From contig NZ_CP160680.1 of the NCBI RefSeq assembly GCF_040784935.1, positions 2,223,501 to 2,287,500 of the forward strand: DNA of 64,000 nucleotides, written 5' to 3'. Shown one piece after another: positions 1 through 17,105 of the stretch (the stretch's first letter is position 1; the number at the start of each line of letters is the position of its first letter). Position numbers and translations under genes: made by a program. Source of the stretch: Lewinella sp. LCG006 (GTDB taxonomy: Bacteria; Bacteroidota; Bacteroidia; Chitinophagales; Saprospiraceae). The notes below the pieces were generated by a model that worked only from the letters and a program-made list of their open reading frames with translations, did not search any database and was not told the origin of the DNA.

Positions 1-3000
1 ACGTCTTCAGGTATGCCTTGGAAAACAGGAGCAGTTTCGTCTACCAGGTACCAGTTGATGGTTGCCGTAGCGGTATTGCCGCATTCGTCCTTGCTCGTCC
101 AGGTACTTATCAAGTGACCAGAATAACCGACTTCCAGACAATTGAAGGTGCCGAGGTCTTGCAATTCATAATCAACTTCCACCAGGCCACTACAGTTATC
201 AATAGCGTACGCTGAATTGGCGATCAGCTGAGAGATGTTGCCATATTCAGAACACTCCACAAATACGTCCTGTCCTGGCTCGTACTGATTAATGTAGCCA
301 TCGCTGAACTCGATCACCGGCGGGGTAGTATCTTCAAAGGTGACGACTTGTACTTCCGTCGTTGAATTACCACAGCCATCGGTAGCCGTCCAGGTACGGG
401 TCAGGGTATAGTTGTTATGGCAGTCGCCATCGGTACGTACTTCCGTAAAGTTGTACACTACTTCAGAGCAGGAATCAAATGCCTGGAGATTTGGCAGGCC
501 GATCTCAGCATCACATTCCACCGTATAATCGGTGGGTGAGAAATTGAATACCGGTGGCGTAGTGTCTACTACCGTGATGATCTGTACACAAGTGCTGGGA
601 TTGCCACACGCATCAGTAGCCGTCCAGGTACGGGTAATCGTTTCGGTGTTGCCACAACCAGGGACCGTGTTGTCGCTGAAGGTAATCGCTACCGTGCCGC
701 AAACGTCGGAGCCAGTGGCCATACCCGTAGCAGCAGGCGCTGTTGACATCCCGCATTCTACCGTAACGTCACCTGGGCAGGTGATGCTCGGGGGCGTGGT
801 GTCTACTACCGTGATGATCTGTTCACTACTAGCCATATTCCCACACGCATCGGTCACTGTCCACGTCCGAGTGATGGTTTCGGTATTGCCGCAGCCTGGT
901 ACAGAAGTATCAAGATAGTCAACCGAAGGTGTACCACAGCCATCGGTGCCGATGGCGGTACCTGTTGCGGAAGGGGCTGTAGATGCCCCACATTCTACCG
1001 TTTCGTCAGGAGGAACGACAATCGTGGGCGGAGTGGTGTCTACTATGGTGATGATCTGGTTACAGCTTGATGGGTTGCCCGCAGCATCCGTCGCCATCCA
1101 AATACGGGTAATTACGCCGGTATTGCCACAAGCTGCGGCAAAAATGTCATTCCACGTAACAATTGGCATACTACAATTATCGATACCAGTGGCAATGCCA
1201 GTGGCTGAGGGCAATGTAGATTCATCACACTCCACGGTGGCGTCCGCCGGACAATCAATGCTAGGTGGTGTGGCATCAATTACCGTCAACGTAGTCATAC
1301 ACTGGCTCGAAAGCATTCCATCGCTTACTGTTAGGGTTACGTTGGTAATACCTAACCCGTAGGGACCTTCTGGACTCACGGAAAACGTCAGCATATCCAT
1401 GTCCGGATCGGTGGAGCCTCCGTCGAATGCAGTAGCCACAGCTTCTGCCAGGCAGTTTTCATTCGCATCGACACTGACCGACTGACAAGCAGCGACGGGC
1501 GGTTGATTACAAAAGCTCAAAGGATCATCTACCGTGATGGTAACTGTACAAGGTTCAGAAACATTGTTTTCAAAATCCCTGACACTGACCGTTAACGAAA
1601 ACGTTCCCACATCGCTACAGTCTAAAGTGCGGGGGTTTTCGGTTAATCCAGTTGCCCGTATACCACAAGCATCTATGGCGCTAACGATAACATCCGTCCG
1701 AACGAAGGTGAAATCAAAATCTGCCTCGCCGTTTTGGTCCAGGCTAATGGTAGCATCCTGACAAGTCAAGAGAGGAGCCACCGTGTCCCGCACCGTCACC
1801 TCAGCAATACAATCACTGATATTACCCGACATATCTTCAACGGTTAAGGTAACCGGAATAGGAAGCTGACCAGCTGGTATATTGGTACGGTCGTCACAAT
1901 CAAACATCGTCCGGGAAACGGAAAGCGAGACGTTACCACAATCATAGGAGGTGCCGCCGTCTACGTCTGCGGCGGTGATCGTAGCGTTACCGGTTTCATC
2001 CAGATAAACGGTAATGTCTTGACAAACAGCTTGGAGTGCCGGAGCTGTTTCTTGAAACTCGTACGCTCCCAGGTCAATGGTCATGCCACCGTTTACCGCG
2101 TCAAAGTTGCGGGGGTTACCATCAAAGTCAGTGCTGGTCGAATTAACGGTATCGTCACCGGTGTCAATCGCGGGGGAGCATTCCTGGAGCTGAAGGTCAC
2201 CATTTGCCTGGTCAACGAAGAGGGGATCTACATCACCATTACCGTCAGGGCAGTTGGCGCAAGGGGCATAGCCTCCCTGTATAATGGAATTAGAGACAAT
2301 AGAAGGAAAAAAACTTGGTTCTAAGAAGAATAGTTCAGAACTATTGTTCCATAGTATTGAATTTCTTAAAGTTATTGATCCCTCACTTGATATACAAATT
2401 CCTCCGCCATTGAAAGCGGAATTTCCACTTATACTACAGTTAATCATAGTCGGTTGTCCAGTGGAGACATACATTCCTCCGCCCACTTGACCTGCCTGAT
2501 TTCCATACAACTTACAATTGATTATTGTGGGCCGGGCTAATTCTCTGTTCATCAGACCTCCACCAAAATTAGTCGCACTATTTCCTGCAAAAGAACAGTT
2601 GAGGATTAGCGGTTTCGACCCAAATAAATCATTATGAATTCCTCCGCCATTGACAGCTGAATTTCCATTAAAGAAACAGTGGGATATCGTAGGTGAAGCA
2701 TTAAAATTCGCAATACCTCCTCCGGCAGATATAGCGGTGTTACCACTGAAGGTACAGTTGGACACCGTGGGGGAGGAGGAGACGTTTGACATTCCACCGC
2801 CGGTGTCGTTTGGAAAGCCTCCATCTGCATTCCCGCCCGTGATGGTGAAGCCATCGAGCACAGCGGTACTGTTGAGGCCATTGCCATTGTTGAAAATGAC
2901 ATGATAGCTGTTGTTTGCCAAGGTATTGTCCCCGTCGATATCGCCACTGAGGACCGTACCATTGGTGGCAGGGGCTTCATCGCGCTCGCCAAATCCTGGG

Positions 3001-3845
3001 TTACCCGTATTGGGGAAACCACCGTAGATGGCGAGGTTGTTTTTCATGACAAAGGCATCGGTACGCAAAGTGCCAGGGACATACGTGCCTTCGGCCACCC
3101 AGATTTGGGTAATGCCCGGACAAGTACTCGCCAGTGCATCCTGCAAATCGGTGAAGGCGTCGGCCCAGGAGGAGCCATCATTATTACCCGTCGCGTCGTC
3201 GTTCACGTAGAGGATATTGCCAGACGGGCAGGTTTCAAAACTCCATAGAAAGTTAGGACCAAACCATCCCTCGTCTGCTCCAGAAACAATATTCGGAAAT
3301 GCCATAGCGGGAGGAACCATAAAGAAAAGATTTGTTTGGCGGGACTCCCTGTAGGTAATGGGCGTTGCATAGGTTTGTGTCGAACTAAAAATGAACTTAT
3401 CGCTGCTAAATTGGGGATAAAAAGCACCAATTATATAAACTTGACCGGCACTTAATGTAATGGATGGAATGGGAACATAACGATACCCACCAATCAAGGT
3501 AGTACCATTACCACTGGGAATGGTGGCTGAAGTCAACAGTGTGCCACTGCTATTCCAAATGCCAATATCATGGGCAGTTGCCAAACCATTTCCACCGGAA
3601 TCATAAATACCCAAACTAGATACAGTAATCTCGGACTCAGCGGTGAAGGACCACCCCATAGTACCTCTTGCATCATCAAGCCCCGCTTCGCCAATTATGT
3701 CCTCACGTGTTGCATTGGCCGTCTGTATGGCGGGAACGCCGGTTTGGGCTATAAGAGAAAAAGGTAGTAGCAGTAGCGCCGCCCATAAAAGTGCCGTGCG
3801 GCCAAAGAAGTTGCCCGCTTGTTTTGTGGTGGATAGTAATATCAT
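1..3845 (-). CDS. Giant secreted surface protein, beta-helix plus HYR repeats (3' end outside window)
   Basis: The frame is open from the ATG at 3845 to the window edge, and an in-frame TAA 12 bases upstream makes this the only start. A hydrophobic signal (ALLLLPFSLIAQ) is followed by a beta-sandwich-like region. A right-handed beta-helix comes next (about 2950 to 2300), with repeated coils of the form NCxFxGNxAxxxGGG, of the choice-of-anchor Q/pectate-lyase-like type. From about 2000 to base 1 there are Ig-like HYR repeats marked by TVECG, TRTWTATDACGN and VVDTTPP, with a period of 78 to 79 residues. Proteins of this build in Saprospiria are normally exported by T9SS and anchored to or released from the surface; the C-terminal sorting domain would lie outside the window. 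Role inferred: adhesion or matrix. A three-site operator-like array lies upstream (3940-4013). Family identity is confident, function is not. Confidence 0.9.
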   Translation of the reverse strand, partial: MILLSTTKQAGNFFGRTALLWAALLLLPFSLIAQTGVPAIQTANATREDIIGEAGLDDARGTMGWSFTAESEITVSSLGIYDSGGNGLATAHDIGIWNSSGTLLTSATIPSGNGTTLIGGYRYVPIPSITLSAGQVYIIGAFYPQFSSDKFIFSSTQTYATPITYRESRQTNLFFMVPPAMAFPNIVSGADEGWFGPNFLWSFETCPSGNILYVNDDATGNNDGSSWADAFTDLQDALASTCPGITQIWVAEGTYVPGTLRTDAFVMKNNLAIYGGFPNTGNPGFGERDEAPATNGTVLSGDIDGDNTLANNSYHVIFNNGNGLNSTAVLDGFTITGGNADGGFPNDTGGGMSNVSSSPTVSNCTFSGNTAISAGGGIANFNASPTISHCFFNGNSAVNGGGIHNDLFGSKPLILNCSFAGNSATNFGGGLMNRELARPTIINCKLYGNQAGQVGGGMYVSTGQPTMINCSISGNSAFNGGGICISSEGSITLRNSILWNNSSELFFLEPSFFPSIVSNSIIQGGYAPCANCPDGNGDVDPLFVDQANGDLQLQECSPAIDTGDDTVNSTSTDFDGNPRNFDAVNGGMTIDLGAYEFQETAPALQAVCQDITVYLDETGNATITAADVDGGTSYDCGNVSLSVSRTMFDCDDRTNIPAGQLPIPVTLTVEDMSGNISDCIAEVTVRDTVAPLLTCQDATISLDQNGEADFDFTFVRTDVIVSAIDACGIRATGLTENPRTLDCSDVGTFSLTVSVRDFENNVSEPCTVTITVDDPLSFCNQPPVAACQSVSVDANENCLAEAVATAFDGGSTDPDMDMLTFSVSPEGPYGLGITNVTLTVSDGMLSSQCMTTLTVIDATPPSIDCPADATVECDESTLPSATGIATGIDNCSMPIVTWNDIFAAACGNTGVITRIWMATDAAGNPSSCNQIITIVDTTPPTIVVPPDETVECGASTAPSATGTAIGTDGCGTPSVDYLDTSVPGCGNTETITRTWTVTDACGNMASSEQIITVVDTTPPSITCPGDVTVECGMSTAPAATGMATGSDVCGTVAITFSDNTVPGCGNTETITRTWTATDACGNPSTCVQIITVVDTTPPVFNFSPTDYTVECDAEIGLPNLQAFDSCSEVVYNFTEVRTDGDCHNNYTLTRTWTATDGCGNSTTEVQVVTFEDTTPPVIEFSDGYINQYEPGQDVFVECSEYGNISQLIANSAYAIDNCSGLVEVDYELQDLGTFNCLEVGYSGHLISTWTSKDECGNTATATINWYLVDETAPVFQGIPED

Positions 3846-3911
3846 TTGGATGAAGTTTTAAGATTAGTGTTTGTTAGTGTCGAGTAATCAAACCTGGAAT
3901 ATTTCCGATAC

Positions 3912-3920
3912 CATAAAGGT
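3912..3920 (-). promoter_or_regulatory. Putative -7 element ACCTTTATG of the HYR gene
   Basis: Read on the minus strand, ACCTTTATG starts exactly 39 bases after the first T of the proximal TTGTAA site. The same word (ACCTTTGTG) lies at exactly the same offset in front of the gene ending at 9478 (10428-10436). It resembles, imperfectly, the Bacteroidota -7 box TAnnTTTG. No clear TTG at -33 is seen, which is compatible with activator dependence. Promoter status is inferred from the conserved position. Confidence 0.45.
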
Positions 3921-3939
3921 CAGTGGAAGCGACAAAAAT

Positions 3940-4013
3940 GCCTTTCACGTACTTTACAAAAGCATGGACTTAACTTACAAGGGAGAAATAAAGGCATGGA
4001 CTTATTTTACAAG
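3940..4013 (-). promoter_or_regulatory. Three-site operator-like array upstream of the HYR gene
   Basis: Reading toward the gene, three sites occur: CTTGTAAAATAAGTCCATGC (4013-3994), CTTGTAAGTTAAGTCCATGC (3981-3962) and a divergent proximal site TTTGTAAAGTACGTGAAAGG (3960-3941). The TTGTAA cores are 32 and 21 bases apart, close to three and two helical turns, so the sites would face the same side of the DNA. The identical architecture recurs at 10456-10529. All sites are direct repeats on the coding strand, which suits AraC-type regulators. The regulator is inferred to be the kinase/AraC hybrid at 10559-13450. Confidence 0.7.
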
Positions 4014-4074
4014 GGTTGGCAATATAAGTGCCAAGTCACTGATTTGTAGCAGCTTAAAAAAGCGAGTAATAATT

Positions 4075-4251
4075 GCTAACTTGAAAACCTCGCCAAGGGA
4101 ATAATGGCTGGATTAAACTCAACTCCCAAGTCTTGCTTGGCAGCATTATTTTGATAAATCATCCGGGCCTTTCCTTGATAATTTCCAGAAATTTTTTGGT
4201 GTTGTAACCTCCGATGAAACCGGAGCCACCGATGATTCCTACTTTTTTCAT
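4075..4251 (-). pseudogene. Internally deleted NAD-dependent epimerase remnant
   Basis: An ATG at 4251 opens 30 codons reading MKKVGIIGGSGFIGG, the N-terminal Rossmann strand and GGSGFIG dinucleotide loop of extended SDR/epimerase proteins. That frame stops at 4159. In a shifted frame the next bases read ARMIYQNNAAKQDLGVEF and end at a TAG at 4075. This resembles the C-terminal part of such epimerases, where a conserved [KA]xxxLGxxP segment precedes the end. The central 250 or so residues expected for the family are missing. The fragment is too short to fold and is best read as a gene reduced by an internal deletion with a frame change at the junction. Confidence 0.6.
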
Positions 4252-4383
4252 TGTTTTTATTTCTCCACGGTTCTACGACTCAAAATCGTAGGGCGTGGAA
4301 TCTCTTACTGATTTAGTTAATTAAGTTCAGGCAGGCTAGAAGCAGCCCATCATTAAATGATGGAGCAGAATTGCGTATACTCT

Positions 4384-5151
4384 TCAGTACCGGCTACTGC
4401 TTACACCCAGTCGGTCTTGTTCCGCTCCCCGGGAAAGCTCGTAGACGTAGCGCCCGGTGACAGTACTCACCGCTTCGGCCAGCAATGGCAGCTTGTTGCG
4501 CCAATAGCGCAGTGCTCCGGGGGCGTTGTTCTCGTGAACTGCCCGCCTTTCGGCAAGGTCATCCGGATCTTCGGCGGAATAGACTAGTTTAAAGGTGTTT
4601 TCTGCTCCTTCTCCTCCTTGCGAATAGCAGGTAAAGGTGAGCGGACTATTCATTTTATTGTGAATAAGCGCAAGTTCTTGCAGGTGCTCCATTGCTTGGC
4701 CCCACTGCCCGGCAGCAACCCGATAAGTGACCACCTCATAATAGGGATCGGGCCAGCTTTTCCCGTCCAACTCCGTTGGCAGATAACTCAAATTGGAATG
4801 CTTATAAAGCGGTTGGGCAGGCGCAACGACTACCATGTTACGCACGGTTTCCAGTTCGGTAAAATACCCAGTAATAAGGCTGGTTGGACAATCCTTTTCT
4901 GCCCCCTCCCAAGTTGGTAAGACCACTTCGAAAGTATGATCACTGAAAACATAAAAATGCCAGGGCCAGTCACAAGCAGATTGATAACGTTCCATCATTT
5001 TGGCCTGTGCGTGGATAAATGCCTGCTCTTGGCCCGGCACGACCCGAAGTCGCACTAATTCGTAATGCTGCTGCTCCGACTGGCCATAAACCGGCGAACT
5101 TGTCAAGATGATAGCGATGATGAATAAAGGGATGATTTTTAAGTATTGCAT
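4384..5151 (-). CDS. Secreted protein with two alpha/beta-barrel-like repeats
   Basis: The 255-residue protein begins with a typical signal peptide (IIPLFIIAIILTSSPVYG, cleavage near residue 23). The mature part looks like an internal duplication. YELVRLRVVPGQEQAF near residue 31 and YEVVTYRVAAGQWGQAM in the second half both start a strand-helix pattern like that of dimeric alpha/beta-barrel (ABM/NIPSNAP-like) domains. No catalytic residues can be assigned. It lies about 50 bases downstream of the TonB receptor gene on the same strand, so co-transcription is likely. Its fold class matches the C-terminal domain of the protein at 8569-9285, which suggests that the locus deals with a common small molecule. 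The function is unknown and the fold call is by eye. Confidence 0.75.
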   Translation of the reverse strand: MQYLKIIPLFIIAIILTSSPVYGQSEQQHYELVRLRVVPGQEQAFIHAQAKMMERYQSACDWPWHFYVFSDHTFEVVLPTWEGAEKDCPTSLITGYFTELETVRNMVVVAPAQPLYKHSNLSYLPTELDGKSWPDPYYEVVTYRVAAGQWGQAMEHLQELALIHNKMNSPLTFTCYSQGGEGAENTFKLVYSAEDPDDLAERRAVHENNAPGALRYWRNKLPLLAEAVSTVTGRYVYELSRGAEQDRLGVSSSRY

Positions 5152-5201
5152 AAGGTTAAGGTTTTATGGTGCTCACCCAGAATAGGGCTACCTGAATGCT
5201 A

Positions 5202-7667
5202 CTAGTTGTTAATTCGGTTAAGTTCTTCGTCGAGTGCGCTATTGGTATTTTTGCGGGTCTTCGCCTGTTGATTGCCAAACTTCCAGGTGATACCCAGACC
5301 GAAGCGTTGGGTATCAAAAGACCGCACACCATCGATCCGAATACCACCATAATCGCCGCGGTAGAAATAGTCGTTGGTCGTCCTGAAGATATCGGCACCC
5401 GTAATCCGTAGCTGTAATTGTTTGTCGAAGAAATCCTTGCGCAATCCAAAGTTTACGCTTTGATTTCCCCGCACCCGCACCGAGCCTCTCCAGACCCAAT
5501 CGCTTCCTACGGAATAGGTGAGATCCAGGAGTATGTTGCCGGGCAGCTTGATACTGTTCTGCAAGCGACAGTTGTAGTTGGTGTTATCCAAATCGATCAG
5601 CGTGCCTTCCAGGTTCCCATTGTAGGTAGCGTAAGATCCTTCCAGGAAGGTATTAACCGTCCAGTTTTTCGTTACTTCCACCGGGTAGCTGAGCGATACG
5701 CCATAATCGGTGGCCCGTTGCATATTGCGGGGGATGATCTGGTTGCTGCCCGTTCCGGTAATTTCAAAAATGCTGGCAAAAAAGTCCCGGGTTACACTGT
5801 AGGTATTCGTTACAATTAGCTTTTGCTTATAACTGTAGGACAACTGATAGTTCATGGTGTATTTCGGACTCAGGAACGGATTGCCCTTCCAAACGGTAAG
5901 CTGGCTAATCGGCGTTTCAAAGGGGTTGAGATCCTGGTAATTGGGGCGAGTAATCCGCCTACCCAAACTAAGGCCCCAGGCGTGATCTTTCTGCCCAGCA
6001 AAGGACAAACTCACATTGGGAAAAAAATCGGTGTAGGTACGGGGGACGTCTTTGTTGTCGAGGGGCAAATCACTGATCAATTGCCCGCGAGAGTTGGTGC
6101 GTTCCATCCGTAGTCCGCCATTCAGGGTCAAGGCTGGCGACAGTTGGGCGTTAACGATGGCGTAAGCGGCAGCCACATCTTCGGTGTACTGAAAGTCATT
6201 GCTCTTGGTGGGATCCAGAACCAATTCCTCACTATCCGCATCATAGAAGACAAAATTATTTTGCGTACTGATGTGGGAATACTTCCCACCAGCGGAGAGG
6301 GTAAAGTGCTCCCATTCGCGTTCGTAGTCCGTCTTGGCCGACCACAGCCCGATGGTCGTCATCGCATCGAATTCAGCATTGTCAATACCTGCCACCGTTA
6401 CTTCGTCGGCTGCCAGCAGGGTATTGGGCTGCGCTGTATGCCGGTCACTGCTAAACGCACCTAGGCTGAGCGCTGAATTCAGGCTACTTGTACTGTTCAG
6501 CTGCCACTGGTGATGCAGATCAGCAGCATAATTCTGTGAGGGTTGCTCAACCAAGGATTGAGAAAGGAGTACGTTGGATCGTTCGTTGCTCCCATTGTTA
6601 AAAATGTCCGTTCGGCTACCGAGTACATCGTTGTTCTGATTGAGCAAGCCTCGGGCGTTGAGGCTGAGTAAATGACGCTCCCCCAACTGTGATTCCAGGC
6701 CCGCCGCAACGTTCCAACCCCGGCGTTTGCTGATCTCGGTGGAGTTCAAATCCAGGGTGGTATTGTTCTGCTCCTTGGTGTCGAGAAAAGTATCAAAGGA
6801 GGTTTGGCTAGATTGCGTGACGTCCAGATTGGCACGTAACTTTTCCCCGCTGTAATTAAGCGTAGTAGTGTTGTTGTTACGAAAATAGCGACCTTGGCTA
6901 AAACTCGAGGACAAGCTTCCATTGTAACCCAATGCCAGGTTGCTCTTCATCACAAAATTGATGATGCCGGCGTTCCCTTCTGCTTCGTATTTCGCCGATG
7001 GATTCGTGATGATTTCAATGGTTTGGACATTGTCCGAAGAGATACTTTGTAGCAAAGTAACCAGATCATCACCCGACAGGCGGGAGGGCACATCATTGAT
7101 GTAAATACGTACGCCACTTTTCCCAAGCAGAGAGATATTGTTATCCATATCTACGCTTACCCCAGGAGATTTTCTCAATAGGTCGAGTCCATTCGTGCCC
7201 GACGCACTGGGACTGCTGTCCACATTGAAAACCAGGCGATCGGCCTTTATTTCTACTGGGGGTTTGCGGTAGGTGACCACTACTTCGCCTAATTCGGCGA
7301 TGGCCTTCGTTAGCCTAATATCCGGAACCGTGATCGCTTCTTTACCAGAAACAGTGATGGGTTCGGTGGTATAGGTAGCGTATTCCAGATGGTCGACTCT
7401 CAGGCGGTAGCTGCCGGCAGCGACATTTTCAATGCGAAAATCACCCGTAGGAGTACTGATGGCGCTGCCAACTACCAGCGAATCATTTTGCAATAAAGCC
7501 ACCGAGGCATACATGACTTCGGTTTGCCATTCATCCAGTAACTTTCCTATGATTGCTCCTTTAGCTACCGGATTGGCAGACTGGGCAGCGAGGAAAAATG
7601 ATGCCAGGAGGCAGATGACCAGGCTTGTAATTGCCCGGTGACAGTGGGAATGGGATGTGTAGTTCAT
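5202..7667 (-). CDS. TonB-dependent outer-membrane receptor (OMP_b-brl_3 type)
   Basis: The 821-residue protein has a signal peptide (ITSLVICLLASFFLAAQ), a carboxypeptidase-regulatory-like domain at about residues 35 to 115, a plug domain with the typical segment VRIYINDVPSRLSGDDL and the EIITNPSAKYEAEGNAGIIN motif, and then a large beta-barrel with many alternating aromatic strands. This layout fits the outer-membrane beta-barrel family related to SusC/TonB receptors. It imports an unknown ligand across the outer membrane using TonB energy. No SusD partner follows, which is normal for this subfamily. It sits between the TPR gene and the secreted double-domain protein and probably shares their transcript. 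The ligand cannot be read from the sequence. Confidence 0.93.
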   Translation of the reverse strand: MNYTSHSHCHRAITSLVICLLASFFLAAQSANPVAKGAIIGKLLDEWQTEVMYASVALLQNDSLVVGSAISTPTGDFRIENVAAGSYRLRVDHLEYATYTTEPITVSGKEAITVPDIRLTKAIAELGEVVVTYRKPPVEIKADRLVFNVDSSPSASGTNGLDLLRKSPGVSVDMDNNISLLGKSGVRIYINDVPSRLSGDDLVTLLQSISSDNVQTIEIITNPSAKYEAEGNAGIINFVMKSNLALGYNGSLSSSFSQGRYFRNNNTTTLNYSGEKLRANLDVTQSSQTSFDTFLDTKEQNNTTLDLNSTEISKRRGWNVAAGLESQLGERHLLSLNARGLLNQNNDVLGSRTDIFNNGSNERSNVLLSQSLVEQPSQNYAADLHHQWQLNSTSSLNSALSLGAFSSDRHTAQPNTLLAADEVTVAGIDNAEFDAMTTIGLWSAKTDYEREWEHFTLSAGGKYSHISTQNNFVFYDADSEELVLDPTKSNDFQYTEDVAAAYAIVNAQLSPALTLNGGLRMERTNSRGQLISDLPLDNKDVPRTYTDFFPNVSLSFAGQKDHAWGLSLGRRITRPNYQDLNPFETPISQLTVWKGNPFLSPKYTMNYQLSYSYKQKLIVTNTYSVTRDFFASIFEITGTGSNQIIPRNMQRATDYGVSLSYPVEVTKNWTVNTFLEGSYATYNGNLEGTLIDLDNTNYNCRLQNSIKLPGNILLDLTYSVGSDWVWRGSVRVRGNQSVNFGLRKDFFDKQLQLRITGADIFRTTNDYFYRGDYGGIRIDGVRSFDTQRFGLGITWKFGNQQAKTRKNTNSALDEELNRINN

Positions 7668-7716
7668 AACTTTTTATTATTAATGGGTAGTAGGTTGGCG
7701 GAGGGAAACAGCACAG

Positions 7717-8235
7717 CTACTCCCAGCCTGATTTTTGTTCTTCTACGATACTATTGAGTTGTTCTTCGCGGGCGAGAGTGGCACGCTCTTGTGCCCGCTC
7801 CATGCCCAATGCCGTTGCTTGATCAAAGTATCGAGCTGCTTTGTCGTATTCTTTGGTCTCCAGATAGTACTCGCCCATACTGAAGTAGGCGTAGGGATCC
7901 TGGGCGGCCATCGTCATGTAGATCGAAAAAGCCTGCTTGGCTTCTTCCAATTGCTGGTTTTCCAGGTAGTAGTAGCCCATGCTGTTGAAATCGGGGTAAA
8001 AGTCCGAACTGGTTTCTATCAGTTTAGTATTCAACTCGAGCGGCGCGTTAGAACCAGTTTCAGTCAACGTGACTGGTGCTTCCAGAACGGCATCCATGTT
8101 GCCTTCCATGTAAGCCTGGTGCAATTCCGCCCTGGACGCGGCAGAGGGATGAGCCTGGGAAAAGTGAACTTTTTGGGCAACCAGTGTAGTAGTAAGGCCC
8201 AGAAACAGAAACATTGAGGACAATAAGAGTCTCAT
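7717..8235 (-). CDS. Secreted TPR-repeat protein
   Basis: The 172-residue protein has a signal peptide (LLLSSMFLFLGLTTTLVAQ). The C-terminal half holds about two TPR units (FNSMGYYYLENQQLEEAKQA and YFSMGEYYLETKEYDKAARY), which form a helical scaffold for protein contacts. It precedes the TonB receptor by about 50 bases and is probably the first gene of a three-gene unit. A MITE lies only about 20 bases upstream of its start codon, so any promoter must be within or beyond the MITE. A role as periplasmic partner of the receptor is inferred from position only. Confidence 0.85.
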   Translation of the reverse strand: MRLLLSSMFLFLGLTTTLVAQKVHFSQAHPSAASRAELHQAYMEGNMDAVLEAPVTLTETGSNAPLELNTKLIETSSDFYPDFNSMGYYYLENQQLEEAKQAFSIYMTMAAQDPYAYFSMGEYYLETKEYDKAARYFDQATALGMERAQERATLAREEQLNSIVEEQKSGWE

Positions 8236-8255
8236 GGTAATAGGTTTTTATAGTT

Positions 8256-8502
8256 AAGGTGAGGTTGGAGGTATTATATGCGACCTCTCCGAGGTCGGGT
8301 GAGTGAAATCGTTTGTATTTGCTACCAATATGACATCTCTCCGAGATGTTATGCATGACCTCGGAGAGCCCGTCTGGCCAAGGCTTGCCGGACAGGGTCA
8401 AAAATTGGTAGAATAGTCGTTCAGGCCTTGCTTCGACCTCGGAGAGGTCGCACATGGTGTATTACTATTGAAAATCAAGTGATTAATACCAAATCTCACG
8501 TT
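8256..8502. mobile_element. MITE copy 1 (uninterrupted)
   Basis: The left end AAGGTGAGGTTGGAGGTATT and the inverse of the right end AACGTGAGATTTGGTATTAA form imperfect terminal inverted repeats. Inside are two palindromes built on CGACCTCTCCGAGGTCG and CATCTCTCCGAGATG, and no gene. A second copy lies at 30261-31570. AGTT borders both ends (8252-8255 and 8503-8506) and may be a target duplication. Relative to copy 2 this one carries about 26 extra bases near 8370-8396 (CCCGTCTGGCCAAGGCTTGC and following), which resemble part of the repeat at 33741-33760. A small non-autonomous transposon is the best reading. Confidence 0.8.
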
Positions 8503-8516
8503 AGTTAATAACAGCG

Positions 8517-8545
8517 CAAAAAATACCACAGGGATGCCTATGGCT
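8517..8545 (-). terminator. Intrinsic terminator after the 238-residue NTF2 gene
   Basis: On the minus strand GCCATAGG and CCTGTGGT form an eight-pair stem with two G-U pairs, followed by ATTTTTTG. It lies 24 bases past the stop codon at 8569. Confidence 0.6.
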
Positions 8546-8568
8546 TTTTTTGTGCTGTCTTTTATAAA

Positions 8569-9285
8569 CTATTGACGATCCAGAATCAGCACCGTCGGCT
8601 TTCCGGTCACACCGGCTTCGCCCATCGATGCTTTCAAATTAGGGTCTGAAAAGAAGGCCTGGAAAGCTTCTATTGATGGCCATTCGCTGATAACGTAGGC
8701 GGTGTTCGGGGCGCCTTGTAGCGTTCCGATTTCGCAGTTACGTCCACCCGCTGCATTCAGTTCGGGCAGCCCCTCACTGAAGACCGACTTCCAATGGGCA
8801 AAGTCTTTCACCTCATGATAGACCAGGACCTTGACGATGGGCGTCAGTACAGTTTTGGCAATTTTCCACTGGTCCTTGTCTCTGATCATCGTATTGGCGT
8901 AGGTACCCGTGGTATGGACATCGATATCGTAGACGATCGTTTTGCCGTAAATCTCGTAAGTACCTAAGGCGACCCAGGCGCGCTCGGCATCTGACCAGTG
9001 AACACTCGACTGGCGTAGGAGCAGCGTGGCGTTGTTGAGGCGGAACTGCGAAGACAGGTAAGCCATGACCTCGTTGGCGCCGACCATTTCGTTGCCATTC
9101 TGATCGATACGGGATACGTATTCCGAATACATACCTTTTAAGGCATCGGTATCCTGCTGATTATACCCTGCCATGTAGTCGCGGGCAAAACGTTGCATTT
9201 CACTATTATTGGTACTCATTTGTGCGTGAATTTTGGTGAAGGTGACAGCACTTAACAGTGCCGTGAAGAGCAGAATGCTTTTCAT
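8569..9285 (-). CDS. Secreted NTF2-like protein with C-terminal ABM-like domain
   Basis: The 238-residue protein starts with a signal peptide (MKSILLFTALLSAVTFTKIHAQ). Residues about 28 to 145 form an NTF2/SnoaL-like domain (FARDYMAGYNQQDTDALKGM, then VHWSDAERAWVALGTYEIYG). The last 85 residues (VLVYHEVKDFAHWKSVF to the end) look like a dimeric alpha/beta-barrel domain of the antibiotic-biosynthesis-monooxygenase type. The N-terminal domain is clearly paralogous to the first domain of the protein encoded at 9478-10362; both share the pattern M.Y....D..AL...Y..Y..RID..G. Such domains bind small hydrophobic molecules or act as isomerases; the substrate here is unknown. A terminator follows the gene. 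Confidence 0.85.
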   Translation of the reverse strand: MKSILLFTALLSAVTFTKIHAQMSTNNSEMQRFARDYMAGYNQQDTDALKGMYSEYVSRIDQNGNEMVGANEVMAYLSSQFRLNNATLLLRQSSVHWSDAERAWVALGTYEIYGKTIVYDIDVHTTGTYANTMIRDKDQWKIAKTVLTPIVKVLVYHEVKDFAHWKSVFSEGLPELNAAGGRNCEIGTLQGAPNTAYVISEWPSIEAFQAFFSDPNLKASMGEAGVTGKPTVLILDRQ

Positions 9286-9477
9286 GAAATGAAGGATTTT
9301 AAAATTTGTGATAGGATGATCCCCATGGCAGAATCGGGACTTTCAGCTGGTACGGACAGGTAGAGGGATACGGGTCCCGTATTGGACCCTAAAGTAGAGG
9401 GTAAAGAGATAGTAAAGAAGACAGAAAACAGTCTCTCTACTCTCTACCAAAAATCCTTCTACGCCTTATACCGTAGG

Positions 9478-10362
9478 CTAAGGCCGGGCGGCAGCATCGG
9501 CCAACTGCTTGGTGTCAACGTATTGCTGAAAGCCCGTAACCTTGCCATCCTGGAGGGTCCAGAGGTGAGCTACCTGGGCGTCGATGAGGGCACCATTGCT
9601 CTTGCGCTTGGCATCATAGCGAAGGATAGCAAGCACCTGGTTATCAACCATTTCGCGCAGTTGAATATCTTTGAGGTTGAAGTACTCGTGCTCGGCACCG
9701 ATCTTGGCAAAAACACCATTCAGCACGGCATCGGGGCCGATGTAGGGATTACCCACAGCTAAGGCGTTGCCTTCGGCTTCATTCCATACTACCTGAGGGT
9801 CTAAAGCGCCAAGTACAGAGGGTATGTCGCCGCTGGAGAACGCCTGGTAGAGACCATCGATAACCGCAAGGTTATCTTGCTCAGGCTCCAGTGGCAGGTG
9901 CACAGATTCAGCGATTAGCCAGCGGCCCTTGTCTTCCATCATAGAATTGTAATACCTGCCCGTGAAATGAACCGCAGTACCGTCCGATTTTAGGTTACCG
10001 AAAACTTCGTAAGTACCACTGGTTACAAAAGCGTGTTCCCGATCCGACCAGTTAACTGCTGAATGCCGCACGAATAAGGTATTGTCACTCTGCTCAAATT
10101 GCTCGGCAAAAAAGGCGGCTATCTGGTCGGCGCCGGTCAGTTTTTTACCGTCCTGATCAATCCGCGTCGCATATTCGGTGTATAAATTTTGCAGGGCGGC
10201 GGCATCCTGCTGGTTGTAGGCTCGCATAAAGTCGTGAGCAACCATTTCCATAGCAGCTTCCTCCTTCGCCGACTGGGCTTGTAGCTTGGTGAAGACGGTC
10301 GTGCATAGCAGTAGCAGGAACAATGAAATGTTCTTCATCAACATGCATTTTGAAACTTTCAT
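9478..10362 (-). CDS. Secreted double NTF2-like (SnoaL/DUF4440) protein
   Basis: The start at 10362 is chosen because the longer open frame to 10464 would run into the operator array; it gives 294 residues. MLMKNISLFLLLLCTTVFTK inside the start region is a signal peptide, so starts at 10344 or 10338 are also possible. Two NTF2-like domains follow: residues about 30 to 150 (AHDFMRAYNQQDAAALQNLY, NWSDREHAFVTSGTYEVFG) and about 165 to 290, a SnoaL-like ketosteroid-isomerase fold (AVIDGLYQAFSSGDIPSVLGAL, HLWTLQDGKVTGFQQYVDTK). A double NTF2 arrangement in a secreted protein suggests a small-molecule binding or isomerising role. The start lies 113 bases after the proximal operator site, nearly the same distance as in the HYR gene. 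Confidence 0.85.
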   Translation of the reverse strand: MKVSKCMLMKNISLFLLLLCTTVFTKLQAQSAKEEAAMEMVAHDFMRAYNQQDAAALQNLYTEYATRIDQDGKKLTGADQIAAFFAEQFEQSDNTLFVRHSAVNWSDREHAFVTSGTYEVFGNLKSDGTAVHFTGRYYNSMMEDKGRWLIAESVHLPLEPEQDNLAVIDGLYQAFSSGDIPSVLGALDPQVVWNEAEGNALAVGNPYIGPDAVLNGVFAKIGAEHEYFNLKDIQLREMVDNQVLAILRYDAKRKSNGALIDAQVAHLWTLQDGKVTGFQQYVDTKQLADAAARP

Positions 10363-10427
10363 AAGTAAGGTGTTGAGTAAAAAAGGTGTTGAGTAATGGA
10401 GAAGGAATAGCAATATCCTTCTGACAA

Positions 10428-10436
10428 CACAAAGGT
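10428..10436 (-). promoter_or_regulatory. Putative -7 element ACCTTTGTG of the double NTF2 gene
   Basis: On the minus strand ACCTTTGTG begins 39 bases after the first T of the proximal TTGTAA, the same offset as ACCTTTATG in front of the HYR gene. It contains CACCTTTG, one base away from the Bacteroidota -7 consensus TAnnTTTG. Its function as a promoter is inferred. Confidence 0.5.
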
Positions 10437-10455
10437 GCAGGCCAGGCCGTGAGAT

Positions 10456-10529
10456 GCCATTCAACTATCTTACAAAAGCAGGGACTTATCTTACGAAATG
10501 GAAAAAAAGAGATAGACTTATCTTACAAG
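10456..10529 (-). promoter_or_regulatory. Three-site operator-like array upstream of the double NTF2 gene
   Basis: Reading toward the gene the sites are CTTGTAAGATAAGTCTATCT (10529-10510), TTCGTAAGATAAGTCCCTGC (10497-10478) and TTTGTAAGATAGTTGAATGG (10476-10457). The TTGTAA or TCGTAA cores are 32 and 21 bases apart, the same two spacings as at 3940-4013. In both arrays the proximal site has the divergent tail GTGAAnGGCAT or GTTGAATGGCAT. The array lies directly downstream of the hybrid kinase/AraC gene, the most likely source of the binding protein. Confidence 0.72.
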
Positions 10530-10558
10530 ACGCTGTAAAATAAATGCTAAACAACTGA

Positions 10559-13450
10559 CTATAAGCTATTTAAGAAATCACTGGGATTTTTCTTAAATTC
10601 CTGTTGAAAGGTTCTGGAAAAGTAACTGGGATCAGTGAAGCCTACCTCGTAAGCCACTTCGGAAACGGTCAACCCACCCTTTTTGAGGAGTTCAAGACCT
10701 TGATGTAGGCGGTAAGAGCGGATAAACTGAGAAGGTGTCTTGTCCGTCAGTGCTTTGAGCTTACGGTAGAGTTGCATCTGGCTGAGGTGGCTGGCAGTAG
10801 CCAGTTGGGGCACCCCAAACTCAGCATTACTGAGCTGGGCGTGAATGTGCTCGTGCAGTTTTTGCAGAAAAATGTCCTCTATGGAAGGGCTGGCAGCATT
10901 ATCAGCAATACTTGAGGCACTCTCGGCATAGCGTCGTTGCAATTGCTGGCGCATAACTACCAAAGTTTTCAGCCGGATCAGCAATTCTTCTTTGTCAAAA
11001 GGTTTGGTCAGGTAGGCATCCGCACCGTAGGACAGGCCCTGCACCTTGTCTTGCTGGGTAGATTTTGCGGTCAGTAAAATGATGGGGATATGACTGGTGC
11101 GCTCGTCCTGCTTCAGGGTTTCGCACACCTCGTAACCATTCTTTTCGGGCATCATCACATCGCTGATGATGATGTCTGGAATAATTTCGAATGCTTGTTC
11201 AATACCCAGCACCCCATTTTTGGCCGTATGGAAAATATATTGTCCATTTAATACGGTTTTGATGTAAGTGATGATATCCTGGTTGTCTTCGATGATCAAT
11301 AACTCGGGAAGCGCTGAAGTGTCGGCCTCTGGTGTTTCCTCATTTGGTGTGGAGGAAATAGCCTCGTCCAGGGTTTCCTCGATCGGCAGTTGGGGGAAGG
11401 TCCTTTCGTATGGTAGCGACGTAGCAGCTATTTTGGCTTCAATAGGGAGGTAAAGTATAAATTCGGTACCAACCCCTCGCTCGCTCTCTACGGTAATCCG
11501 GCCGTTCAGCAACTCCACCAACTCTTTGGTCAATGCCAGGCCAATGCCCGTTCCTTCTGCTTCCTGGTTGTCGGCGTGATTCACTTGATAAAAACGGTCG
11601 AAAATATGATCGATATTCTCAGGAGAAATACCCCGCCCCGTATCCTTGACTTTCAATTTGAGCAAAGGCTGCCCTTTTTCCTCTATTTTACTCGCGTGGA
11701 AAATGATTTTTCCGCCCTCCGTCGTAAACTTCAATGCATTGGAAAGGAGGTTATAAACGATTTGCTGTACAACACCCTCGTCATAATCCATGAACACCTC
11801 TTTTTCTTCCGAATGAAAAACCAGGCGAATGTTTTTCTGCGTAGCGTTGGAATAGAAAGATTCGGTCAAATACTGCAGGTAAACGATAATATCCTGATGT
11901 ATCGGGTTCATGGCCAGACTACCCGACTCTAGTTTGGATAAGTCCAGCAGCTGATTGATGAGCCGTAGCAGGTTAACACTGTTGCGTTTGATCAGTGTTT
12001 TCTCCTTTGGATGGTCTTTGATATGCTCGCTCATACCCATGATTACCGTCAGTGGAGTGCGGAATTCGTGAGTAATATTGGTATAGAAGCGAGCTTTAAA
12101 CTCGTTGAGTTCTTTGAGACGATCAGCCTCCAGTTGTTTTTTTTCCTGGATGAGTTGGCTTTCCTTAAGCGCAAAATTGGCTTGTTCCCCCGCCTGAACC
12201 TGCTGACGTTGGCGATAGGCTAAACCCAATGAAAAGACGATTACCTCAATAATTGCACCTATTTGTAAATAGAAAATGGAATAAGTAGTAGGCAGCAACC
12301 GCGAGAGCAGCGTCAGGAAGAAACCCAAGGTAATGATTGCAATCCCCACTACCACGAAGCGCCCTTTTGTATCTCCTGTTTTGTACAAAGGAAAAAGGAA
12401 CAACAAGCAAGACAAAGTCACCAAGGCGATGTAGAACATGCTCACCCGATCTTCCACTTTATAGCTGAAGTTAGAGTAAACAGACAGCACTATGGACAAT
12501 GCGATTAACGGAATTCCTAAATAAACAAGGTACTTAAAGTAACGATCCCACTTAGGCAACAACTGCTCTAAATCCAGGAAACTACGAATGAACGCGAGAT
12601 AACACATCAATCCTCCAAACAAGACCAGCTTAAACAAGCTGTAATACGCCGGATGTTGCGTAAACAGCACATTACCCAACCAGTCGGTCAGGTCACTGGA
12701 TGAAAAACTGACGTATAGCACCACGGCCAGGATGTAACCAGCATAGAAGACAAAACTGCGGTCGCGGTCAAAGAAGTAGACAATCAGGTTGTAAAACAAC
12801 ATCATCAATAAAAAACCGATAAAAATGGAGTTGCCCGTTTTGTCGATCACCAATTTGTCATAAAAATCATCGAGTGGTTGCGCATAGAGGTAAAAAGAAG
12901 GGACAATCGCTTGCTGTTCACTGATCCCACGAAAATAGATGGTAACAACCTCTCCGGGCGGTAAGATTGTTTTCACCAAATTACTTCTGGTGGAAGGCAC
13001 AAATTTCTTTTGGGAGTATGGCGTAAAAGCACCATTAGCTTGTTGCTCCCAGGAACCATCTGGGGTGGGAAGGTACACTTCCAGCACAGACCAGGTATCT
13101 GAAAAAGAGAAAACCCATTCAGGGTACTGATCTGCTTCCGGCAAACGGTTTTCCACCTGAATCTTTCCCCAATAGTATTGATAATTCTCTACAGGAAGGG
13201 GGTATTCTTCATAAAACAGAAACTCGCTTTGTCGGGCGGGTTGTAGCACATCGTCCAGCGTATAGCTACCCGTACTGTCAACTAAGACCTGAGTGAAGGT
13301 TCTTAATTTATAATTCGTCTGGACCTCTTTCAGCACCGCTACTGGCGGGGTACTGCCAGGTACCGCCAGAAAAAAATCAGTTCCCTGACAACTGACGAGC
13401 AGCAGGAATAACAACACCCCTAAAAAAACAGAATATTTATGCTCGTGCAT
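10559..13450 (-). CDS. Hybrid sensor histidine kinase / response regulator / AraC transcription factor
   Basis: This 963-residue one-protein two-component system starts with a lipoprotein-like signal (FLLLVSCQG). A 7TMR-DISM extracellular domain follows (about 50 to 195), then seven membrane helices (about 205 to 415) and a short coiled coil. The HisKA domain has phospho-acceptor His461 in ITHEFRTPLTVIMG. The ATPase domain shows the N box NLLSNALKF, G1 DTGRGIS and G2 GTGIGLAL. The receiver domain has Asp764 in DIIISDVMMPEKNG, and an AraC-type helix-turn-helix fills the last 100 residues (SEVAYEVGFTDPSYFSRTFQ). All key residues are present, so it should be active. It senses an external or periplasmic ligand and binds DNA directly. 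Target sites are proposed in the arrays at 10456-10529 and 3940-4013. Confidence 0.96.
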   Translation of the reverse strand: MHEHKYSVFLGVLLFLLLVSCQGTDFFLAVPGSTPPVAVLKEVQTNYKLRTFTQVLVDSTGSYTLDDVLQPARQSEFLFYEEYPLPVENYQYYWGKIQVENRLPEADQYPEWVFSFSDTWSVLEVYLPTPDGSWEQQANGAFTPYSQKKFVPSTRSNLVKTILPPGEVVTIYFRGISEQQAIVPSFYLYAQPLDDFYDKLVIDKTGNSIFIGFLLMMLFYNLIVYFFDRDRSFVFYAGYILAVVLYVSFSSSDLTDWLGNVLFTQHPAYYSLFKLVLFGGLMCYLAFIRSFLDLEQLLPKWDRYFKYLVYLGIPLIALSIVLSVYSNFSYKVEDRVSMFYIALVTLSCLLFLFPLYKTGDTKGRFVVVGIAIITLGFFLTLLSRLLPTTYSIFYLQIGAIIEVIVFSLGLAYRQRQQVQAGEQANFALKESQLIQEKKQLEADRLKELNEFKARFYTNITHEFRTPLTVIMGMSEHIKDHPKEKTLIKRNSVNLLRLINQLLDLSKLESGSLAMNPIHQDIIVYLQYLTESFYSNATQKNIRLVFHSEEKEVFMDYDEGVVQQIVYNLLSNALKFTTEGGKIIFHASKIEEKGQPLLKLKVKDTGRGISPENIDHIFDRFYQVNHADNQEAEGTGIGLALTKELVELLNGRITVESERGVGTEFILYLPIEAKIAATSLPYERTFPQLPIEETLDEAISSTPNEETPEADTSALPELLIIEDNQDIITYIKTVLNGQYIFHTAKNGVLGIEQAFEIIPDIIISDVMMPEKNGYEVCETLKQDERTSHIPIILLTAKSTQQDKVQGLSYGADAYLTKPFDKEELLIRLKTLVVMRQQLQRRYAESASSIADNAASPSIEDIFLQKLHEHIHAQLSNAEFGVPQLATASHLSQMQLYRKLKALTDKTPSQFIRSYRLHQGLELLKKGGLTVSEVAYEVGFTDPSYFSRTFQQEFKKNPSDFLNSL

Positions 13451-13667
13451 CCCAGTTATTTATGCAGTCCCGAGGTAAAAATAAGACATTCTGGGAGAGA
13501 ACGATTAATAATTTTGCGCTGGCTCCTCTTTGGCTTGCTAAAGTGCGCTAAAGTTATTGCCTCTTAATTTTTTTTAACATTTTCTTCTCCCTGTGCAACC
13601 TTCGCATCCGCCCCCTGTCATTACCCATGTAAGTAAAACAGAATCACCCCACTGTAATTTAAAAAAA

Positions 13668-13705
13668 GCCGGGGGCGTTTGTTCCCCGGCAATTTTATAC
13701 TTTAG
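13668..13705 (+). promoter_or_regulatory. GC-rich hairpin overlapping the probable ECF sigma promoter
   Basis: GCCGGGG at 13668-13674 and CCCCGGC at 13684-13690 form a seven-pair stem. On the minus strand it is followed by seven Ts, so it can act as a terminator in that direction. On the plus strand a possible -33 TTG (13679-13681) and -7 TACTTTAG (13698-13705, near the consensus TAnnTTTG) flank the right arm. The palindrome may therefore be an operator, an attenuator, or a block against antisense transcription; the sequence alone does not decide. The rest of 13451-13709 shows no gene. Confidence 0.4.
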
Positions 13706-13709
13706 AGTG

Positions 13710-14291
13710 ATGGCAACATTGGTCATGAAAAGCAAAAGGGCCACTTTGGACTACGTAAATACGCATCGGGAAATCATCCAGGAATGTCAGCTCGGTAATC
13801 GGCAGGCTCAGTTTGAGCTTTACAAGCACTACAACCGTGCGATGTTTAATGTATGCCTACGAATGGTAGGCAATGAACACGATGCCGAAGATGTCTTACA
13901 AGTGTCTTTTGTGCAGATCTTCAAAAAGATTGACACCTTCCGCTTTGAGAGTGCTATCGGTGCCTGGATAAAAAGAATCGTGGTGAACAACTGCATCAAC
14001 TTCCACAAAAAACGAAAGCTTCAGTTTTCGGAATGGGATGCAAAAATTGACCCTGTTGATGAATCATCCGAGCCACCGGCACCGGCAGGAATGCAGGTAG
14101 AACACATCAAACAAGCCATGACCCAGTTATCCGATGGTTACCGTACCGTCTTCAGTCTTTACGCCATTGAAGGCTACGATCATCAGGAAATAGCAGACAT
14201 TTTGGGGATCAGTGAAGCGACGTCAAAGTCGCAGTATTGCCGGGCCCGCAAAAGGTTAAAAGAAATTTTACAAGCACAGAAGATTGATTAG
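13710..14291 (+). CDS. ECF-type RNA polymerase sigma factor
   Basis: The 193-residue protein has sigma region 2 (QFELYKHYNRAMFNVCLRMV, with EHDAEDVLQVSFVQIF as the core-binding helix and WIKRIVVNNCINFHKK) and region 4 (MTQLSDGYRTVFSLYAIEGY, then EIADILGISEATSKSQYCRA). It belongs to the Bacteroidota ECF group. The start at 13710 is preferred over a longer upstream frame, whose extra residues look non-coding; 13725 is equally possible given a TACTTTAG box at 13698-13705. The two genes that follow encode an anti-sigma-like membrane protein and a DUF4097-like protein, the usual trio for envelope-stress or surface regulation. Confidence 0.93.
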   Translation: MATLVMKSKRATLDYVNTHREIIQECQLGNRQAQFELYKHYNRAMFNVCLRMVGNEHDAEDVLQVSFVQIFKKIDTFRFESAIGAWIKRIVVNNCINFHKKRKLQFSEWDAKIDPVDESSEPPAPAGMQVEHIKQAMTQLSDGYRTVFSLYAIEGYDHQEIADILGISEATSKSQYCRARKRLKEILQAQKID

Positions 14292-14378
14292 TGTCAATTG
14301 CCCGTGTTTGATTTAAATAGGATTATCTCCATCGGGTTGAGCATATTGCCAGGTCCGAGGATATAAAGCGAGTGAAAA

Positions 14379-14948
14379 ATGCAACAGAACGATTTAGAAA
14401 AATTCATCCTTGACAACAAGGATGCTTTTGATGACGCGCGCCCTAGTCTCAAGCTTTGGGCCGCCATTGAAAAAGACCTTAACGGTGAAGAGGAGCAACC
14501 TTCGGGCCAGCTACGCGTCAGCCGTCCTTGGTACCAGATCGCCGCTACGGTACTGATCTTACTCACCGTTGGAGGAGCGGGAGGTGCTTATCTCAACCAG
14601 CAGACACAACAACCTACCGCACAAGAAATGATTGAAGAAGTGGCTCCTGAATTCTCAGAGATGGAGCAATACTACAATCAACGCATTCAGGAGAATTATG
14701 CCCGCTTAACTACCTATACCCAAGACCCCGAAATTGATGCTGACCTTAAGCAATTAGACAATGCCATGGTAGAGCTTCGGGAAGACTTGGCCAATGCTCC
14801 TACCGGACAAGAAGAAATGATCGTTCAACAACTAATCGACAGTTATCGCCTCAAGCTGCAAATTCTTGAGCGTATTCTGGAGCGCATCGAAAATCTTGAC
14901 AACAGTATTACTACACCAGACAACAACAGCAATGAAACCAGTATTTAA
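14379..14948 (+). CDS. Single-pass membrane protein, probable anti-sigma factor
   Basis: The 189-residue protein has a soluble N-terminal 50 residues (DLEKFILDNKDAFDDARPS, the sigma-binding side in this family), a membrane helix at about 51 to 72 (WYQIAATVLILLTVGGAGGA) and a charged, helical periplasmic half rich in E, Q and L that is likely a coiled coil. No zinc-binding HxxxCxxC motif is visible. Its position directly after the ECF sigma gene and its topology support an anti-sigma role. Its last 17 bases overlap the next gene, which points to translational coupling. Confidence 0.8.
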   Translation: MQQNDLEKFILDNKDAFDDARPSLKLWAAIEKDLNGEEEQPSGQLRVSRPWYQIAATVLILLTVGGAGGAYLNQQTQQPTAQEMIEEVAPEFSEMEQYYNQRIQENYARLTTYTQDPEIDADLKQLDNAMVELREDLANAPTGQEEMIVQQLIDSYRLKLQILERILERIENLDNSITTPDNNSNETSI

Positions 14949-16065: not shown

Positions 16066-16080
16066 TCTGAAGTTTTCACT

Positions 16081-16125
16081 AAAAGCATCAGGCAGGGCGA
16101 TCACATCACCCTGCCTGATGCTTTT
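16081..16125. terminator. Bidirectional terminator
   Basis: AAAAGCATCAGGCAGGG and CCCTGCCTGATGCTTTT form a perfect 17-pair stem with an 11-base loop, with A and T ends that give a U-run in both directions. It separates the convergent genes ending at 16065 and 16137. Confidence 0.9.
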
Positions 16126-16136
16126 CAGACTATATG

Positions 16137-16961: not shown

Positions 16962-16991
16962 AGGCCACCAAAGATAGGAAAAGTTTGGGGC

Positions 16992-17022
16992 AAAAAAAAA
17001 GGAACCTACCGAAGTAGATTCC
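16992..17022 (-). terminator. Intrinsic terminator of the tRNA-Val transcript
   Basis: On the minus strand GGAATCTAC-TTCG-GTAGGTTCC is a stem with a stable UUCG loop followed by nine Ts. It lies 10 bases after the tRNA 3' end. Confidence 0.9.
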
Positions 17023-17031
17023 TAATTTTGT

Positions 17032-17105
17032 GGGCGATGAGAGACTCGAACTCCCGACCCCCTCGGTGTAAACGAGGTGCTCTGAACCAACTGAGCTAAT
17101 CGCCC
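17032..17105 (-). tRNA. tRNA-Val (anticodon TAC)
   Basis: The 74-base minus-strand sequence folds as a cloverleaf. Acceptor arms are GGGCGAT and ATCGCCC, the D arm is GCTC-AGTTGGTTCA-GAGC, the anticodon stem CCTCG/CGAGG encloses TTTACAC, and the T arm is GTCGG-GAGTTCGAGT-with its partner strand. The anticodon TAC reads GTA and, by wobble, other valine codons. CCA is not encoded. A strong promoter (17123-17153) and a terminator (16992-17022) show a single-gene transcript. Confidence 0.96.

Follow-up and report, generated by a model that had tools for sequence, protein, structure and literature searches.

Two promoters in a 64,000-nucleotide stretch of the Lewinella sp. LCG006 genome (contig NZ_CP160680.1, positions 2,223,501 to 2,287,500; this whole stretch is the window, and coordinates refer to it) carry closely similar arrays of short repeated sites, here called A and B. 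We predict that both are operator-promoters of the hybrid two-component system (HTCS) encoded at 10559-13450 (probability about 0.82). Each array has three direct copies of TTGTAAnnTAAGTCC on the minus strand at offsets 0, +32 and +53, and a fourth copy, in inverted orientation, is found four bases beyond site 1 on its distal side. Array A precedes a gene for a HYR protein and array B precedes a gene for a double SnoaL protein, both on the minus strand.

Layout and conservation of the arrays

The sites of the two arrays are as follows.

3998..4012, minus strand: array A site 1, TTGTAAAATAAGTCC, as read from the sequence
3966..3980, minus strand: array A site 2, TTGTAAGTTAAGTCC, 32 bases from site 1
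3945..3959, minus strand: array A site 3, TTGTAAAGTACGTGA, 21 bases from site 2
4017..4031, plus strand: array A inverted fourth site, TGGCAATATAAGTGC, degraded, 4 bases distal to site 1
10514..10528, minus strand: array B site 1, TTGTAAGATAAGTCT, as read from the sequence
10482..10496, minus strand: array B site 2, TCGTAAGATAAGTCC, 32 bases from site 1
10461..10475, minus strand: array B site 3, TTGTAAGATAGTTGA, 21 bases from site 2
10533..10547, plus strand: array B inverted fourth site, CTGTAAAATAAATGC, 4 bases distal to site 1, coinciding with a weight-matrix peak

A first-pass annotation of this DNA described two identical arrays of three direct copies, with cores 32 and 21 bases apart and a divergent tail on the proximal copy. 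The copies, their spacings and the divergent tails (GTGAAAGGCAT and GTTGAATGGCAT) are present in both places as it claimed. The arrays are not identical, with 57 of 74 bases equal over the three-site stretch, and the count of three sites omits the inverted copy. Over 101 bases, 72 are equal (45/57 in the direct sites, 10/16 in the inverted site and 17/28 in the remainder), and the 100-base flanks on the two sides agree at merely 34 and 42 positions. The second-best 74-base match to array A within the window has 35 equal bases. All four sites of an array span about 90 bases.

Searches with array profiles place this resemblance in a genome-wide context. Profile R2 is built from sequence only, using 17 arrays that all come from other genomes. 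These were found via an earlier profile, R1, which contained the window arrays, so that the choice of the training arrays, though not their letters, depends on the window. In the organism's own 7,507,556-base genome, R2 scores array A at 86.5 bits, array B at 85.9 and the third-best match at 16.6; the corresponding R1 scores are 91.2, 88.2 and 15.1 bits. These gaps, and the low score of the next match in the window, bear out the first-pass opinion that the agreement is very unlikely to be due to chance. That annotation had named scattered single copies of the motif as a reason for doubt, and lone cores with up to two mismatches are not enriched in this genome (129 versus 199 for a reversed control pattern). 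As judged by the R2 profile, the predicted regulon in Lewinella sp. LCG006 is only these two promoters.

Related arrays were collected from 26 hand-picked genomes, mostly chosen for earlier matches, and from 396 genomes sampled from the order, which makes an uneven sample; the 396-genome scan used stricter filters and scored few candidates per genome. The matches printed above 30 bits form a set of 48 arrays, from which one match printed as 30 bits (G081:C72) was left out. An R1 match in genome G379 proved to lie inside a gene and was removed from later counts. In the relatives, the distance from the array's first model positions to the start codon ranges from 139 to 396 bases (44 of the 48 arrays have a called open reading frame (ORF) start within 450 bases). 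The constant distance of 113 or 114 bases that was first proposed for the window therefore does not generalize, and in the window itself it depends on which of several possible in-frame ATGs begins the SnoaL gene (N-terminus MKVSKCMLMKNIS).

Six arrays (A, B, and those of genomes G002, G003, G004 and G023) align without gaps over 101 columns, and every one of them has an inverted copy (consensus GCACTTATTTTACAA) that is separated by four bases from the distal side of site 1. The 33 arrays that score at least 40 bits were also scanned with a weight matrix derived from the direct sites only. Its three direct peaks are expected from the training, and the informative result is the one clear peak on the minus strand, which falls at the inverted site (mean 4.9; 0.7 at the next separate position). 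The alignment-free autocorrelation of all 48 arrays gives its highest values at lags 21, 32 and 53 (z = 18.6, 12.6 and 9.5), followed by 31 and 52 (z = 7.4 and 7.1), and the inverted pair reaches z = 11.2. The three top lags are close to whole helical turns. A second inverted site another 21 bases outward was looked for with the weight matrix in the 33 arrays and was not found.

Upstream of the inverted site, a stretch near CTGATAATCAG (about 10548-10572 and 4032-4056) is loosely conserved and partly palindromic. It often overlaps the HTCS stop codon, and it is also faintly visible in some arrays without an HTCS gene. A palindrome-like fifth element was considered here on the strength of its aggregate centre (z = 9.0), but the count at a fixed dyad is weak (3.0 of 9 pairs versus about 2.4 expected) and the element is not claimed.

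Linkage to HTCS genes

The gene adjacent to array B encodes the putative regulator.

10559..13450, minus strand: HTCS gene, 963 amino acids, with Pfam domains all above curated cut-offs

One polypeptide contains a 7TMR-DISMED2 domain, a 7TM region, HisKA, HATPase and receiver domains and a C-terminal AraC-type helix-turn-helix DNA-binding domain, and so it combines the kinase, receiver and AraC-type domains that characterize HTCSs in a single chain. The sensor at residues 53-187 is 7TMR-DISMED2 and not the COG3292 type that is usual in Bacteroides thetaiotaomicron, where BT1754 is an HTCS that also has another sensor (PMC3878776).

The HTCS stop codon is separated from the inverted site of array B by 11 bases, and this arrangement recurs. 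Among the 48 matches above 30 bits, 31 follow an HTCS stop codon on the same strand, at distances of up to 50 bases in 30 cases and of 229 bases in the last, which makes the neighbouring AraC-domain regulator the likely binder of the arrays, as the first-pass annotation had supposed. When the training and window arrays are set aside, 17 of 29 matches lie behind an HTCS stop. The same trend holds for profile R1, which does not include the stop-codon region: 10 of its 15 matches of at least 28 bits outside the training set adjoin an HTCS gene. Starting instead from HTCS protein similarity, 51 of 80 loci were fetched, and these contain 20 profile matches at E <= 0.01. Twelve matches, at 12 loci of which three are training sequences, start no more than 60 bases past the end of the HTCS match. 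Of the other eight, that of L277 begins 71 bases past the HTCS match, that of L266 follows a second HTCS gene, those of L264 and L267 are read on the reverse strand, and the remaining four (L270, L272 and two in L273) are located elsewhere.

The five array-bearing HTCS proteins that were scanned have different sensors (three 7TMR-DISM and two Reg_prop/Y_Y_Y) and the same kinase, receiver and AraC domains. The HTCS gene of G004 (L056 10598-12184) seems to lack the N-terminal sensor half in the assembly, where it encodes 528 amino acids that match residues 471-959.

A broader signal is visible in 55 HTCS 3' regions, taken from the protein-fetched loci only. Here lag 21 is strong (z = 9.1) and lags 32, 52 and 53 are weak (z = 3.1, 2.9 and 0.6), and at least 12 of 15 bases are repeated at lag 21 in 10 of the 55 regions (0.0 in shuffles). 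The 21-bp pair thus looks like the common HTCS operator, in line with the prediction for Bacteroides (PMC3878776), and the third direct site and the inverted site look like an extension of that pair within one lineage. In the organism's own genome, no array comparable to that of the window HTCS was found at the 15 best of 36 other receiver-AraC matches (self-similarity 22 to 30 versus 38). By eye, some other HTCS genes of this genome (L163 to L167) have weaker, differently lettered repeat pairs after their stop codons, followed by a -7-like box; at L163, for instance, TTGCGAC occurs twice, 21 bases apart. It may be that every HTCS is served by an operator of its own in the equivalent position behind its stop codon.

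A candidate -7-like promoter box

Both arrays are followed by a candidate promoter element.

10430..10437, minus strand: -7-like box CACCTTTG (TAnnTTTG class) of the SnoaL cluster promoter, at a nearly fixed position across arrays
3914..3921, minus strand: -7-like box GACCTTTA of the HYR gene promoter, whose last base departs from TTTG; G003 has GACCTTTG in the same place

These boxes resemble the -7 box TAnnTTTG of the Bacteroidota sigma-A promoter, which is reported for a flavobacterium at -12 to -5 (PMC9723704). The first T of this consensus is absent from both boxes of the window. Within the interval scanned, the looser pattern NAnnTTTG is present in 36 of the 48 arrays, and 35 of these have it at array positions 134-138 (mean 3.1 and maximum 10 in shuffles). 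R2 spans the box, and this count is consequently not fully independent of the profile. R1 ends before the box, and 14 of its 21 matches of at least 28 bits have it. No conserved -33 box is seen in the array alignment, which points to a promoter arrangement that would need its activator. If CACCTTTG occupies -12 to -5, then site 3 of array B lies at about -50 to -36 and stops immediately before the position that a -33 element would take.

Spread and history

The four-site layout is retained across several genera. Outside the window's family, the highest score among the 396 sampled genomes of the order is 24.0 bits. Among named contigs, weak matches also occur in the flavobacteria Spongiivirga citrea (24.3 bits) and Psychroserpens algicola (19.4 bits), and both start within 14 bases of the end of an HTCS match.

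In G003, an HTCS gene whose product is 69% identical to that of the window is followed by an array and then by a HYR-type gene, whose product is 53% identical to the window HYR protein over 1394 residues. Site 1 and the linker of the G003 array equal array B at 29 of 32 bases and array A at 22 of 32. In the promoter part, 22 of 32 bases are equal to A and 19 of 32 to B, and leader letters beyond it are shared with A. Because this resemblance is split between B and A, a duplication plausibly made two arrays from one. In the simplest account, the ancestor had a single array, flanked by the HTCS gene on one side and the HYR gene on the other; the SnoaL cluster then arrived in this interval, and a doubling of the array left each target with a copy. 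A remnant of an NAD-dependent epimerase gene lies at 4082-4251 between the cluster and array A; its two ends match the intact gene in a related cluster (L056 15062-16024) and the middle is gone.

Alternative explanations

Several observations weigh against assigning both arrays to the HTCS. No HTCS gene adjoins 17 of the 48 arrays, array A included. The promoter box is imperfect in array A and absent from 12 of the 48 arrays. The first positions of R2 overlap HTCS 3' codons and could create part of the adjacency, although 5 of 8 R2 matches that lack this part still adjoin an HTCS gene. Finally, AraC-domain identity correlates with array identity (r = 0.56) hardly better than receiver identity does (r = 0.54; partial correlations 0.28 versus 0.23), so co-evolution does not single out the DNA-binding domain. 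The isolated arrays and this indecisive co-variation are what would be expected if a different transcription factor bound arrays that merely often stand beside HTCS genes. We consider that very improbable, since HTCS genes with varied sensors recur beside the arrays and no equally recurrent gene was seen in the listed neighbourhoods (by an uncounted inspection), and since direct repeats 21 bp apart are what has been predicted as the HTCS motif (PMC3878776). It is very improbable that the second array is a mere fresh segmental duplication without function. The G003 array does lead directly to a HYR-type gene and is nearer to B distally and slightly nearer to A in the promoter part, but A and B differ at 17 of 74 bases with both spacings intact, their flanks have diverged to the values given above, and other genera retain the layout.

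Another explanation is a variant of the proposed HTCS assignment and not its opposite. The 21-bp pair alone could be the HTCS operator, with the inverted site and site 1 serving not activation but another regulator or a repressed state, as the distal operators of AraC do. The predominance of lag 21 over lags 32, 52 and 53 in the 55 HTCS 3' regions fits this idea, as do the arrays of G224b, G087 and G228, which in the alignment seem by eye to have just the pair, and AraC itself has proximal and distal operators (PMC4760080). However, the four sites of one array share a pattern even where arrays differ (TTGAAAAATAAGTCC in G084, TTGTAAGATAAGTCC-like in array B), which suggests that one protein recognizes all four. 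A role for the pair alone is a serious possibility but somewhat unlikely, and we favor the HTCS encoded at 10559-13450 as the protein that would use both arrays.

Proposed mechanism

The four-site layout, its conservation, its link to HTCS genes and the -7-like box are observed; binding by the HTCS, activation and what the distal module does are inferred from the DNA in the following way. A signal would cause the membrane HTCS to autophosphorylate, and its receiver domain would then free the AraC-type domain. An HTCS dimer would bind to one face of the helix at sites 2 and 3, the 21-bp direct pair, and from there it would recruit RNA polymerase to a promoter that has no conserved -33 box. The inverted site and site 1, arranged back to back, form a distal module some three helical turns away from site 2. 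A second dimer would most likely bind there and make occupancy cooperative. Array B would drive the SnoaL/outer-membrane cluster and array A would drive the HYR gene.

A more specific model may be entertained tentatively, though it is somewhat unlikely. The array may be a compound operator for two HTCS dimers, with one pair in tandem next to the promoter and, three turns further upstream, an inverted pair set back to back. A membrane-tethered tetramer would grip this DNA at the membrane and give a switch-like response. It might then represent a second class of HTCS operator that belongs to one AraC-domain lineage of the Saprospirales family, with weak occurrence in flavobacteria, and that has been copied whole to recruit further promoters, the one of the HYR gene being an example.

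Target genes and their surroundings

The predicted targets are one gene cluster and the HYR gene.

9478..10362, minus strand: double SnoaL/NTF2 protein with a signal-peptide-like N-terminus, start codon uncertain; target of array B
8569..9285, minus strand: SnoaL-like protein with a signal-peptide-like N-terminus; cluster gene
7717..8235, minus strand: TPR protein; cluster gene
5202..7667, minus strand: outer-membrane beta-barrel protein (Pfam OMP_b-brl_3 with CarboxypepD_reg); cluster gene
4384..5151, minus strand: 255-amino-acid protein without a Pfam match; cluster gene
1..3845, minus strand: HYR protein that continues beyond the window; target of array A

The complete HYR gene encodes 1962 amino acids with HYR_4C domains and a Por_Secre_tail, the type IX secretion tail. 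Over 557 residues, the product of 5202-7667 shares 51% identity with a protein from the G004 cluster. Neither SusD nor a glycan enzyme is found among the Pfam matches of the five cluster genes and the HYR gene, and a TonB-receptor-like barrel protein is present; the targets thus do not include the SusC/SusD pair or glycan enzymes that define a polysaccharide utilisation locus.

Behind the arrays of relatives, the 13 first genes that were scanned include four SnoaL/TPR genes (G009, G381, G385 and G325), three OMP_b-brl_3 genes (G221, G178b and G002b), one each with DUF6616, hemopexin, Peptidase_S74 and PA14 with a secretion tail, and two without a match. A hydrophobic N-terminus occurs in 38 of 44 downstream ORFs versus 141 of 230 ORFs of at least 150 amino acids at the same loci, a modest excess by a crude measure. 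The earlier proposal of a regulon of surface or secreted genes is weakly supported by this excess, and in this genome such a regulon would consist, by the profile, of just the two promoters.

Beside the HYR gene is a second gene for a very large HYR-type protein (L064 6316-12966, 2216 amino acids), and the profile finds no array in front of it. Elsewhere in the window there is a tRNA gene at 17031-17105 on the minus strand (Rfam RF00005, 67.6 bits), and Rfam at gathering scores finds nothing else in positions 1-20000.

Relation to known systems

The HTCS operators predicted in B. thetaiotaomicron consist of two sites with a mean separation of 21 bp that would be bound by a dimer on one face (Ravcheev et al. 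2013, PMC3878776), and they were predictable for 16 of the 36 HTCSs of that one species (PMC3878776). The arrays described here have in common with them an AraC-type hybrid regulator, direct repeats of about 21 bp upstream of the targets (sites 2 and 3 in both arrays) and a regulator gene near those targets. They differ in that they have three direct sites (0, +32 and +53) and one inverted site where those operators have exactly two, and in that the predicted targets are SnoaL, outer-membrane and type IX-tailed proteins where those of B. thetaiotaomicron are SusC/SusD glycan loci (PMC3878776). The first-pass annotation knew of no description of such a regulon, but the 21-bp direct repeat is a published prediction for Bacteroides HTCS operators (PMC3878776), and the site is very probably of this known kind in an unusual four-part form. 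Among the papers listed by the literature searches, judged by titles and abstract openings, none presents a four-site HTCS operator or reads such regulons from sequence in this bacterial group.

HTCSs are a major class of membrane regulator in Bacteroidota (PMC11253607). In Bacteroides systems, an S/CHIP motif is reported to mark HTCSs that are inactive until phosphorylated, and the receiver domain inhibits DNA binding (PMC11253607). The protein encoded at 10559-13450 has the SHIP letters (TSHIPIILL) of this motif, which also includes D-K residues (PMC11253607).

A partial parallel is offered by a soluble member of the AraC family. The sites araI1 and araI2 are direct repeats 21 bp apart. They form the proximal pair of araBAD, at which binding to araI2 recruits RNA polymerase (PMC4760080). 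In both cases a single protein of the AraC family would use several operators, among them one near the promoter from which polymerase is recruited. AraC is a one-component regulator with a distant looping site (PMC4760080), whereas here four sites are packed into the array and the predicted regulator is a membrane phosphorelay protein.

If the assignment is correct, then a four-site operator stands mostly right behind the stop codon of its own regulator, and regulons of this kind would be readable from sequence. The arrays would also make it possible to test clearly how an activator in the membrane exploits more than two sites, and they would connect an HTCS with SnoaL, outer-membrane and type IX-tailed proteins and not with glycan uptake.

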